Notes under the pieces: model-generated
What the model was told of the DNA's origin: nothing
Databases searched by the model: none
Seen by the model: only the letters and a program-made list of their open reading frames with translations
Position numbers and translations under genes: made by a program
Assembly (NCBI GenBank): GCA_944349855.1
Contig: CALVNS010000025.1
Coordinates: 1-35,734, forward strand
DNA: 35,734 nucleotides
Origin: an uncultured Eubacteriales bacterium
GTDB lineage: Bacteria > Bacillota > Clostridia > Christensenellales > Aristaeellaceae
Direction: 5' to 3'
In this document: piece by piece, positions 4,646-22,143 of the stretch
How the letters are laid out: each line of letters opens with the position of its first letter
Numbering within the stretch: position 1 is the first letter of the stretch

Positions 4646-4888
4646 TCAGTCCAGACCGGAGCGGATGCGGCCATGCCGGGTGAGAATCTCCGCCCGACCG
4701 CGCACCTTGACGGCCGACGTGTTGTCGGTAAACTGTGCGATCATGACCTCGCCCGCGTCCAGATGCTCCGTGTGATGCAGCCGCGTGTCGCGTCCACGCG
4801 TCATGCCGATGATCGTGACGCCGTTTTCCAGCGCCTTGACGGCGATGTAATCGCCGCATACGGCGCAGTCGTTGTCGTCTTCCTGCAC
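4646..4888 (-). CDS. mtrB: trp RNA-binding attenuation protein (TRAP)
   Basis: TRAP is an 11-subunit ring that, when loaded with tryptophan, binds RNA carrying (G/U)AG repeats spaced by 2-3 nt and shuts down trp gene transcription or translation. From residue 13 on, this 80-aa protein matches Bacillus TRAP closely: VKALENGV, IIGMTRGRDT, HHTEHLDAGEV, IAQFTDNTSAVKVRG. The residues matching B. subtilis Glu36, Asp39, Lys56 and Arg58 are kept (41, 44, 61, 63); the Lys37 equivalent is His42. The N-terminus is slightly longer and carries CAVC at 8-11. I chose GTG at 4888 because GGGAGG lies 8-9 nt upstream; ATG at 4957 lies upstream of the promoter -10 and is unlikely. A matching RNA target is at 19359-19397. 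Confidence 0.93.
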   Translation of the reverse strand: MQEDDNDCAVCGDYIAVKALENGVTIIGMTRGRDTRLHHTEHLDAGEVMIAQFTDNTSAVKVRGRAEILTRHGRIRSGLD

Positions 4889-19040: not shown

Positions 19041-19069
19041 TTGACATTGGCTCACGCATGCGATATAAT
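19041..19069 (+). promoter_or_regulatory. Consensus promoter for the T-box leader and trpXYZ
   Basis: Perfect TTGACA (19041-19046), 17-bp spacer, perfect TATAAT (19064-19069). A strong, constitutive-looking promoter is what is expected when control is exerted downstream in the leader. Confidence 0.93.
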
Positions 19070-19076
19070 GTGCCCA

Positions 19077-19356
19077 ACTTCAAATCAAACCGTTAAGAAA
19101 AGAGGAGTACACGCCTCCGATTCGGCAAAGCGAGCTGCGGACAGTGCGAGCGCGGCGCGATAGGGACGTGGAATGGGCTTTTCGAGGGCCTTCCCCAGAG
19201 CGGCATCCGTGCGTAGGGAGGGACGGGGGTGCGAGCCCGTGATCAGGTCGCGGCGCATGCTGGTGCGCGCAGAGTGGGCCGAAAGGCCAAGATGAGTGGT
19301 ACCACGGATACAAAATCCGCCTCATGCTTCCCCAAAGGGAGCATGGGGCGTTTTTT
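19077..19356 (+). promoter_or_regulatory. T-box leader, tryptophan specifier
   Basis: T-box RNAs sense the charging state of one tRNA and prevent termination when it is uncharged. Stem I features are AGTA (19106-19109), GCGAGC (19128-19133) and a distal arm with GTGCGAGC near 19144. The specifier region reads GACG-TGG-AATGG, with TGG at 19169-19171 (a second TGG is at 19174-19176), giving tryptophan. The T-box core GAGTGGTACCACGG is at 19294-19307, next to the terminator stem it would compete with. Downstream are genes for a TrpXYZ-type transporter, which agrees with the specifier. Exact helix borders were not computed. Confidence 0.92.
19318..19356 (+). terminator. Regulated terminator of the Trp T-box
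   Basis: CGCCTCATGCT pairs with AGCATGGGGCG, continued by CCC/GGG around a CAAA loop, and is followed by T6 (19351-19356). Its left arm overlaps the sequence next to the T-box core, as needed for the terminator/antiterminator switch. Confidence 0.92.
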
Positions 19357-19358
19357 GA

Positions 19359-19397
19359 TAGAAAAGACGAGACGAGACCAGAAGAGAACAGAAGGAG
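19359..19397 (+). promoter_or_regulatory. Candidate TRAP binding site over the trpX ribosome binding site
   Basis: Eight NAG triplets occur in a row: TAG 19359, AAG 19364, GAG 19369, GAG 19374, CAG 19379, GAG 19384, CAG 19389 and GAG 19395. The first seven are at an exact 5-nt period (2-nt spacers) and the last after a 3-nt spacer. TRAP binds (G/U)AG-rich triplets with 2-3 nt spacing; the B. subtilis trpP and trpG translation-control sites have a comparable number. The last triplet is within the AGGAGG of trpX (ATG at 19408), so bound TRAP would block ribosomes. mtrB is in the same window. Four triplets are GAG and one TAG; the AAG and two CAGs are weaker. Confidence 0.72.
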
Positions 19398-19407
19398 GAA
19401 CCCCCAC

Positions 19408-20486: not shown

Positions 20487-21377
20487 ATGGGCATCGTTTT
20501 GAGCACGGTCGAGCAGGGGCTGATCTACGCGATCCTCGCGCTGGGCGTGTACATCACCTACAAGATTCTGGACTTCCCCGATCTGTCGGTGGATTCCACG
20601 TTCCCGCTGGGCGCGGCGGTGACGGCCACGATGATCACCAACGGCATGCACCCGCTGCTCACGCTGCCCGCCTCCATGCTGGCCGGCGCGCTGGCGGGCG
20701 CGGTGACGGGCATCATCCACGTCAAGTGCCGCGTGCGCGATCTGCTCTCGGGCATCATCGTGATGACGGGCCTGTATTCGCTCAACCTGCGCGTGGCGCA
20801 GGACAAGGCCAACCTGCCCATCTTCGGCACGGATACGCTGTTCAAGAACGGCCTGACCGCCGCGCTGCCGGATGCCGTGGCCGACTACGCGCCGGTCCTC
20901 ATCCTGCTGGCGCTCGTCGTCCTGTGCAAGCTGTGCATGGACTGGTTCCTGCGCACGCGCGCGGGCTACCTGCTGCGCGCCGTCGGCGACAACCCGACCG
21001 TCGTCACCGCGCTGGCCAAGGACGGCGGCATGGTCAAGATCCAGGGCCTGGCGATCGCCAACGCGCTGGTGGCGCTCTCGGGCTGCGTGATGTGCCAATA
21101 CCAGCGCTTCTTTGAGATCTCCATGGGCACGGGCGCGATCGTCATCGGCCTGGCAAGCGTGATCATCGGCACGAACCTGTTCAAGAACCTCTCCTTCCTG
21201 CGCGCGACGAGCGCAGTCGTCATCGGCTCCATCCTGTACAAGGCGTGCGTGGCGATCGCCCTCTCCTCGGGCCTGCTGCCCAAGCCGCAGGACATGAAGT
21301 TCGTCACGGCGGTGCTGTTCCTGCTCATCCTCGCGCTGGGCGAGGTCCGCAGAAAGAAGGTGAAGGCGCATGCTTGA
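20487..21377 (+). CDS. trpY: Tryptophan ABC transporter permease
   Basis: A 296-aa membrane protein of the BPD_transp_2 (branched-chain amino acid/sugar-type) permease family. About eight hydrophobic segments can be seen, beginning at STVEQGLIYAILALGVYITYKIL. The family motif region is FLRTRAGYLLRAVGDNPTVVTALAKDGGMVKIQGLAIANALVALSG, which contacts the ATPase. ATG at 20487 follows GAGGAGG. The stop overlaps the ATPase start by 8 bp. Substrate by operon context only. Confidence 0.9.
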   Translation: MGIVLSTVEQGLIYAILALGVYITYKILDFPDLSVDSTFPLGAAVTATMITNGMHPLLTLPASMLAGALAGAVTGIIHVKCRVRDLLSGIIVMTGLYSLNLRVAQDKANLPIFGTDTLFKNGLTAALPDAVADYAPVLILLALVVLCKLCMDWFLRTRAGYLLRAVGDNPTVVTALAKDGGMVKIQGLAIANALVALSGCVMCQYQRFFEISMGTGAIVIGLASVIIGTNLFKNLSFLRATSAVVIGSILYKACVAIALSSGLLPKPQDMKFVTAVLFLLILALGEVRRKKVKAHA

Positions 21378-22143
21378 GCTGCGCAACGTCACGAAGATCT
21401 ACCAGGCGGGCACGATCAACGAGACCTGCCTGTTCCAGGACTTCAACCTCGCCGTGCCCGACGGCCAGTTCGTCAGCGTCGTGGGCTCCAACGGCTCGGG
21501 CAAGACGTCCATGCTCAACATCATCTGCGGCTCCATCGAGATCGAGCGCGGCCAGGTGCTTGTGGGCGGCAAGGACATCACCCGCATGAGCGAGTTCCGC
21601 CGCCACCGCACCGTCGGGCGCGTATATCAGAACCCGGCGCTGGGCACCTGCCCGTCGATGACGCTGCTGGAGAACATGTCCCTGGCCGACACCAAGGGCC
21701 GGCCGTTCAACCTGCGCCGCGGCACGGATAGACGCCGCATCGCGTTCTACCGCGAGCAGCTCTCGCGGCTCAACCTGGGCCTGGAGGACAAGCTGCATGT
21801 GAAGGTGGGCAGCCTCTCGGGCGGGCAGCGGCAGGCCGCCGCGCTGCTCATGAGCACGATGACGCCCATCGACTTCCTGATCTTGGACGAGCACACCGCG
21901 GCGCTCGATCCCAAGACGGCCGAGCGCATCATGGAGCTGACGGATCAGATCGTGCGCGAGAAGAAGCTGACGACCATCATGGTCACGCACAACCTGCGCT
22001 ATGCCGTCGAGTATGGCGACCGCGTGTTGATGATGCACCAGGGCAAGACGGTGTTTGACAGAGCGGGCGAGGAGAAGCGCGGCGTGACGACCGAGACGCT
22101 GCTGGGCCTGTTCAACGAGATCAGCATCGAGTGCGGCAACTGA
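21370..22143 (+). CDS. trpZ: Tryptophan ABC transporter ATPase
   Basis: The 257-aa energising subunit. Walker A is GSNGSGKTS at 39-47, the signature is SLSGGQRQAAALL, Walker B is FLILDEHTAALDP, with the switch histidine in MVTHNLRYAVEYGD. DEHTAALDP in place of DEPTAALDP (His for Pro) is typical of this subgroup. It starts inside the end of trpY, so the two are translationally coupled. No clear terminator follows; the next promoter begins 8 bp after its stop. Confidence 0.93.
   Translation: MLELRNVTKIYQAGTINETCLFQDFNLAVPDGQFVSVVGSNGSGKTSMLNIICGSIEIERGQVLVGGKDITRMSEFRRHRTVGRVYQNPALGTCPSMTLLENMSLADTKGRPFNLRRGTDRRRIAFYREQLSRLNLGLEDKLHVKVGSLSGGQRQAAALLMSTMTPIDFLILDEHTAALDPKTAERIMELTDQIVREKKLTTIMVTHNLRYAVEYGDRVLMMHQGKTVFDRAGEEKRGVTTETLLGLFNEISIECGN

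Follow-up and report, generated by a model that had tools for sequence, protein, structure and literature searches.

A tryptophan T-box leader with a proposed TRAP binding array at the ribosome binding site of a trpX-like gene in the Aristaeellaceae

Does one leader control tryptophan uptake through two different tryptophan sensors? The question is raised by the region upstream of a trpX-like gene in an uncultured Eubacteriales bacterium of the Aristaeellaceae (assembly GCA_944349855.1, here G000; the genus of the array is g1), located in the window, the whole stretch of 35,734 nucleotides of contig CALVNS010000025.1 that was analysed. The first-pass annotation had described a tryptophan T-box followed by an array of NAG triplets of the TRAP type, and had read the two as sensors acting at different steps. 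The co-occurrence of array and TRAP in related genomes, the conservation of the array and the presence of mtrB (encoding TRAP) in the window support that reading, and we consider it very probable that two tryptophan sensors work in series in the trpX leader, first T-box antitermination and then TRAP blocking ribosome access. The features on which the argument rests are collected in Table 1.

Table 1. Features of the trpX leader, the downstream genes and the TRAP gene (positions in the window)
Feature	Position	Strand	Evidence
Promoter-like TTGACA (19041-19046), 17-nt spacer, TATAAT (19064-19069)	19041..19069	+	read in sequence
T-box leader	19084..19327	+	RF00230, E 4e-15, 69.7 bits, full model 1-219
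Specifier codon UGG (Trp), directly after GAA in specifier loop	19174..19176	+	RF00230 alignment
T-box antiterminator motif GAGTGGTACCACG	19294..19306	+	sequence, RF00230 alignment
Intrinsic terminator: 14-bp hairpin 19318-19350, six T 19351-19356	19318..19356	+	
NAG array, 8 triplets, proposed TRAP binding site	19359..19397	+	sequence, shuffles, relatives
Shine-Dalgarno AAGGAGG, overlapped by last triplet	19392..19398	+	sequence
trpX-like ABC substrate-binding protein gene, 324 aa	19408..20382	+	PF04392, E 3.4e-70
ABC permease gene, trpY-like by position	20487..21377	+	PF02653, E 1.4e-30
ABC ATPase gene, trpZ-like by position	21370..22143	+	PF00005, E 1.5e-24
mtrB (TRAP), 80 aa with presumed GTG start at 4888 after GGAGGTG	4646..4888	-	

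The match of the leader to RF00230 remained below the gathering score of 93 bits, as did 14 of the 15 T-box matches in G000, with an E value of 4e-15 across the full model. In T-boxes the specifier codon comes right after GAA. The specifier region GAAUGGGC aligned to GAAauuca of RF00230, giving a specifier loop GAA-UGG-GC, and the terminator folded at -30.0 kcal/mol (RNAfold of 19310-19358). Judged by the GAGTGGTACCACG motif, the UGG after GAA and the 14-bp hairpin with its T6 run, the leader is a real T-box, so that the tryptophan T-box placed ahead of the array by the first-pass annotation stands. The substrate-binding protein had a single NCBIfam match, NF041285 (ABC_SBP_TrpX), which at 241 bits stayed under the cut-off of 390, and it is therefore called trpX-like here. 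Another RNA element of the window, a Moco riboswitch (RF01055, 7765-7896, plus strand, 68.2 bits, over the gathering score), lies shortly 5' of a gene encoding a BtuC/FecCD-type permease.

The array begins three bases after the T-box terminator. Reading of the sequence confirmed eight NAG triplets between the terminator and trpX, the first seven spaced at an exact 5-nt period (UAG at 19359, AAG at 19364, GAG at 19369, GAG at 19374, CAG at 19379, GAG at 19384 and CAG at 19389). The eighth, GAG at 19395-19397, follows 6 nt past the seventh and is located, as had also been claimed, within the Shine-Dalgarno sequence. These steps (5,5,5,5,5,5,6) agree with the repeated NAG triplets and 2-3-nt spacers of a TRAP site, and the overlap with the ribosome binding site agrees with the translational class of such sites. 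In number and identity of the triplets (8 NAG, 5 of them (G/U)AG) the array falls short of the 9-11 repeats, mostly (G/U)AG, of a full site; the available parts of the literature give 9-11 NAG for TRAP sites (PMC4347634) and at least seven (G/U)AG for stable TRAP binding (PMC4027176).

A TRAP gene is present in the same window, 14.5 kb from the array. The TRAP domain PF02081 was found at 4658-4855 on the minus strand (E 1.1e-36, 125.9 bits against a cut-off of 21.3), the NCBIfam MtrB equivalog NF009724 scored 128.7 bits (over its cut-off of 117), and the protein matched solved TRAP structures (e.g. 1c9s and 1wap). Residues that contact the RNA in TRAP, as given in the available part of PMC4027176, are Glu36, Lys37, Lys56 and Arg58; the TRAP of G000 retains Glu36, Lys56 and Arg58 and has His at position 37 (numbering via the 1wap match). 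Position 37 is also His in G002 and is Arg in G001. Over 51 aligned TRAPs, which represent part of the carriers found and include at least one pair from the same species (L050 and L096), position 37 was Lys in 43, His in 3, Arg in 1 and another residue in 4, and Glu36 and Lys56 were invariant. The TRAP of the window (4646-4888, minus strand) has a CxxC near its N-terminus. Autoregulation of TRAP was considered and rejected, no chain of at least six triplets at 5-6-nt steps being found in the 3.2-kb mtrB locus.

The regularity of the array is hard to obtain by shuffling. A run of at least seven at exact period 5 appeared in 1e-5 of mononucleotide shuffles and in 1.4e-4 of dinucleotide shuffles (19356-19398, 100,000 each); a count in shuffled leaders was among the checks proposed in the first-pass annotation. 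When all spacings of 4-7 nt were permitted, eight NAGs were only mildly improbable (P 0.013; 3,000 shuffles of 19356-19407), so that it is the exact register that carries the signal. That mild value fits a rival reading, in which the segment is a purine-rich, unstructured standby site or enhancer for ribosomes before a strong Shine-Dalgarno sequence and the register is incidental; the segment is indeed rich in purines and folds weakly (-5.9 kcal/mol for the 75 nt taken; RNAfold, G000).

The rest of the genome bears on the same reading from both sides. Within the window, both strands taken together, there was one other exact run of at least four, a run of 4 at around 10390. Five AGs at period 5 were found three times on the forward strand and never on the reverse strand of the 2,725,008-base assembly, and all three matches overlap this array; the search addressed arrays of exact period and is blind to 6-nt steps. 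Equal arrays before unrelated genes, which the first-pass annotation had named as evidence against its reading, were thus absent from the assembly at exact period and five or more AGs. The reversed pattern, used as a control, gave nine matches in G000, three of them in this array because its GAs are periodic too, and six elsewhere. The latter favour the standby segment and indicate that runs of five with a comparable composition are not in themselves unusual; the run of seven is the stronger observation. Nor is the array a general feature of the sequence behind T-boxes. T-box loci L002-L016 (15) were considered, of which L006, L012, L014 and L015 had no motif; among the 11 scored loci an exact run above 2 was found only at the trpX leader (L009), and none of the 10 scorable loci among the 14 other T-box matches in G000 had one.

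The same search was extended to seven of the nine genomes with a TRAP-positive trpX leader described below (without G524 and G555). Six of the seven had a period-5 AG match in the trpX leader; the exception was G001, the array of which includes a 4-nt step. Outside the trpX leader the number of matches was 0 in G000, G002 and G460, 2 in G001, G345 and G545, and 4 in G495, and the TRAP-negative genomes G478, G565, G424 and G513 had 1, 1, 0 and 0 matches, respectively.

A survey of 396 genomes of the order revealed TRAP in 42 (one of these, G335, by a weak partial match at E 1.7e-4), and a survey of 200 genomes of the family revealed it in 10 (3 in g1, 6 in g25 and 1 in g27), the family sample comprising 104 good-quality genomes and 50 genera. 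After removal of a truncated TrpX match (G554), the family provided 66 trpX leaders for scoring, which represent 65 genomes (G510 contributing two); the leaders of G049, G036, G082 and G028, which belong to other families or did not pass the E 1e-60 cut, were handled apart. T-box evidence came from the antiterminator motif in 53 of the leaders and from RF00230 at E values up to 1e-3 in the other 13 (matches at 16 of 16 loci). Runs of at least four AGs in exact period 5 were present in 8 of the 9 leaders from TRAP-positive genomes and in 0 of the 57 leaders from TRAP-negative genomes (Fisher 1.6e-9, a value that ignores kinship), where the absence of TRAP from the 57 assumes that both searches drew the same 200 genomes, as their matching tallies suggest. 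In the ninth TRAP-positive leader, that of G001, seven NAGs are spaced less regularly, one step being of 4 nt and another of 7 nt; its exact run of 3 is as long as the longest run in two TRAP-negative leaders. Lowering the threshold to a run of at least 3 gave 9 of 9 TRAP-positive against 2 of 57 TRAP-negative leaders; the latter two belong to the 13 TRAP-negative leaders without T-box motif, which were scored over 120 nt 5' of the start, and one of the two, L125, has a doubtful start.

The distribution within and around the two genera that combine array and TRAP (g1 and g25) follows the same line. In g25, TRAP was found in 6 of 18 genomes and trpX (E 1e-60) in 8 of 18, all six TRAP-positive genomes carrying trpX; in G478 (95% complete) and G565 (77%), which belong to g25 and are TRAP-negative, the T-box motif is present and the array absent. 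A TrpX tree was built from 32 rows, namely G049 and 31 of the 66 leaders. Its TRAP-negative rows nearest to the two genera have no array either, these being G424 beside g1, and G478, G565 and genus g176 beside g25, with moderate support at the forks concerned (88/50 for G424 with g1 and 86/86 for the TRAP-positive g25 rows). The TRAP label changes three times on this tree (g1, g25 and G049), which argues that the association between array and TRAP is not a single inherited event. Clear evidence of an array comes from two of these three origins. G049, a TRAP-positive genome of another family of the order, was considered as a third lineage with T-box and array and rejected, since its array is irregular and not significant (P 0.15-0.49); its leader (L024) has a T-box, then an irregular NAG array that is split by a small hairpin, and then trpX.

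The way in which the arrays vary is also telling. The g25 arrays have 4-5 triplets in exact register. Among five of the six TRAP-positive g25 leaders (G524 has an insertion), 0 of 10 AG columns varied against 6 of 13 N and spacer columns (P 0.017). Two of the three g1 leaders could be compared likewise: G000 and G002 differ at four array positions, none of them in the 16 AG columns, which is weak for g1 alone (P 0.11). Combined, the spacer tests for g25 and g1 gave P 0.013; a second Fisher value, obtained alongside the spacer test, counts G001 as array-bearing and ignores kinship as well. Fixed AGs with variable spacers are the pattern of a site that is read at AG with a fixed pitch. The first-pass annotation had staked its reading on such a comparison, and relatives bore it out: of the 9 family leaders from genomes with both mtrB and trpX, 8 retain the 5-nt period, and the spacers vary. 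Chance or base composition as the whole explanation can be ruled out by the register, the TRAP-less leaders and the fixed AG columns. For a standby segment with incidental register little room is left, and we consider it quite unlikely, because a run of 4 is seen in none of the 57 TRAP-negative trpX leaders, an AG register of at least five occurs nowhere else in the assembly, and the AG columns stay fixed as the spacers change.

In several TRAP-negative relatives we observed a short frame with Trp and Arg codons between the T-box and trpX, in the slot taken by the array in TRAP-positive leaders. Examples are MTWRWRR, MTWRWRW, MLGLDFRWR and MTRSKRWR, some with a clear Shine-Dalgarno sequence; the leaders concerned are L117, L129, L130 and L136 and, by eye, L108, L115, L126, L131, L132 and L133. 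A strict filter for Trp-codon frames retained 6 of the 66 leaders, of which L072 and L073 may be due to chance. Such a frame could possibly encode a Trp leader peptide and thereby act as a second sensor in these relatives.

NAG arrays were also found elsewhere in the order. Two TRAP-positive genomes, G079 (L163) and G038 (L166), have nine NAGs before a presumed trpE, a name given to both genes from reading their translations. In G079 the triplets keep exact 5-nt steps and extend into the presumed start of the gene; in G038 a hairpin with a T-run separates them from it. Similarly, trpX-type genes are preceded by 10 NAGs at 5-6-nt steps in G082 (L027) and by 6 NAGs at exactly 5 nt in G028 (L048), in both cases with a hairpin and T-run between the NAGs and the gene, and no T-box motif was found in the 400 nt upstream of these two genes. 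In the lowest-energy fold of G082 (inspected by eye) bases of the array pair with the terminator region and replace the terminator hairpin, as an antiterminator would do in this predicted structure. The arrays of G082 and G028 are candidate sites of attenuation by TRAP; the target would again be a tryptophan transporter gene, with TRAP put to another use. As G079, G038, G082 and G028 show, NAG arrays in TRAP-positive genomes of the order can be placed ahead of terminator-like hairpins as well as on ribosome binding sites. An attenuator in G036 was weak (P 0.02-0.15) and is not counted, and the trpC regions of G036, G104, G140 and G068 contained no chain of at least six at 5-6 nt within 9.2 kb, so that no TRAP target was identified for these four genomes; a stretch of G055 (1,212 bases, ending at the contig end) was left unscored.

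These layouts matter for the step at which TRAP would act. It could bind the array and mainly affect mRNA decay or the polymerase that has passed the T-box, and not exclude ribosomes: an action of TRAP on elongating polymerase is known from B. subtilis (PMC7430163, available part), and the NAG runs of G082 and G028 with their terminator-like hairpins show a transcriptional layout. In g1 and g25, however, no hairpin with a T-run was seen between the array and the trpX start (by eye, and by RNAfold for G000), and in both genera the array overlaps or abuts the Shine-Dalgarno sequence (by eye), which makes this explanation very unlikely. A single triplet over the ribosome binding site is said to be sufficient to block access (available part of PMC4347634), and taken together with the lack of a second terminator this makes exclusion of ribosomes from read-through transcripts the best reading. 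That a protein other than TRAP binds the array as a GA-rich repeat is the least probable explanation of all, for although TRAP has His at position 37 and (G/U)AG accounts for only 5 of the 8 triplets, array (at least four in exact register) and mtrB are present or absent together in the 66 leaders with one exception (G001), and gene function, triplet and spacing all fit TRAP sites.

Control by T-box and TRAP in series would then proceed as follows. Polymerase would pass the T-box terminator only when uncharged tRNA-Trp is bound; this sensing of tRNA-Trp is predicted from the T-box with its UGG specifier, antiterminator motif and terminator. Only the read-through transcript would present the eight-triplet array that reaches into the Shine-Dalgarno sequence, and since the array is made only past the T-box terminator, TRAP bound to it cannot act on that terminator. 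Tryptophan-loaded TRAP would wrap the array and shut ribosomes out of trpX, a block that we infer from the sequence, its conservation and the TRAP sites of B. subtilis trpG, trpP and ycbK. By this two-signal logic, which an anti-TRAP protein would alter, full expression of the importer would require both uncharged tRNA-Trp and low free tryptophan.

A TRAP that governs uptake fits what was found of tryptophan synthesis. No PF00425 match (TrpE family) was found in G000 (completeness 92.8%) and no PF00218 match (IGPS, TrpC) in the 10 TRAP-positive genomes of the family. With no TrpE- or TrpC-type enzyme found, tryptophan would have to be imported, and TRAP would have no biosynthetic operon to govern; it appears from these gene contents to have been kept for control of uptake instead of synthesis. 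A wider picture, to which we give even chances, is that trpX leaders of the family generally carry a tryptophan T-box, which in two genera seemingly without tryptophan synthesis is followed by a TRAP array as a serial gate, with a TRAP that has become dedicated to uptake and has perhaps a single target. The Trp-codon frames of several TRAP-negative relatives would then make a second tryptophan sensor behind the T-box a recurrent feature.

If true, tRNA charging and free tryptophan are read independently and one after the other by a single leader, which makes the weight of each signal measurable on one mRNA. It would also provide a reason for the persistence of TRAP in bacteria that seemingly lack tryptophan synthesis, and would give a gut lineage whose TRAP regulon is possibly minimal. 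The combination of a short array with an altered TRAP (His37) is a natural test of the RNA requirements of TRAP.

Several known systems resemble parts of this arrangement. According to the available text of PMC11255114, TRAP sites overlap the ribosome binding regions of B. subtilis trpG, trpP and ycbK, and the array described here resembles them in its NAG repeats with 2-3-nt spacers, its position on a ribosome binding region and its tryptophan-related gene (PMC11255114, PMC4347634); as with trpP, the target is a tryptophan transport gene. Unlike at the TRAP sites of B. subtilis, a tryptophan T-box lies upstream in the same leader, the transporter is of the ABC type, the array is shorter, and enzymes of tryptophan synthesis were not found. 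The gene ycbK of B. subtilis is the second gene of the rtpA(yczA)-ycbK operon, which thereby joins a tryptophan T-box and a TRAP site and is a precedent for their combination in one transcript. For ycbK a TRAP site is described, and for rtpA (yczA) control by a tryptophan T-box at transcription and by tRNA-dependent ribosome stalling at translation (PMC11255114, available part). In rtpA-ycbK, however, the TRAP site serves the second gene and not the T-box leader, and anti-TRAP lets uncharged tRNA counter TRAP, whereas here the two controls would act serially.

The trpXYZ operon of Streptococcus suis likewise encodes an ABC system for tryptophan uptake, and its control by a T-box with UGG specifier was shown with reporter mutants (PMC9382623, available part). 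There, control by the T-box alone is described and the word TRAP is absent from the text of PMC9382623. A further source, PMC2494555, marks in its available part the presence of TRAP and T-box control per pathway. The first-pass annotation knew of no described leader with both elements in series, and we recognised none in the open-access literature as far as its texts were available; both parts are known, and it is their layout, a T-box and a TRAP array in series, that is new by that measure. In having two tryptophan-linked elements in series in one leader of the Bacillota, the trpX leader resembles the tandem T-box trp leaders (PMC12452182, available part). In those both elements are T-boxes, whereas here the second would respond to free tryptophan by way of a protein and would act on translation.
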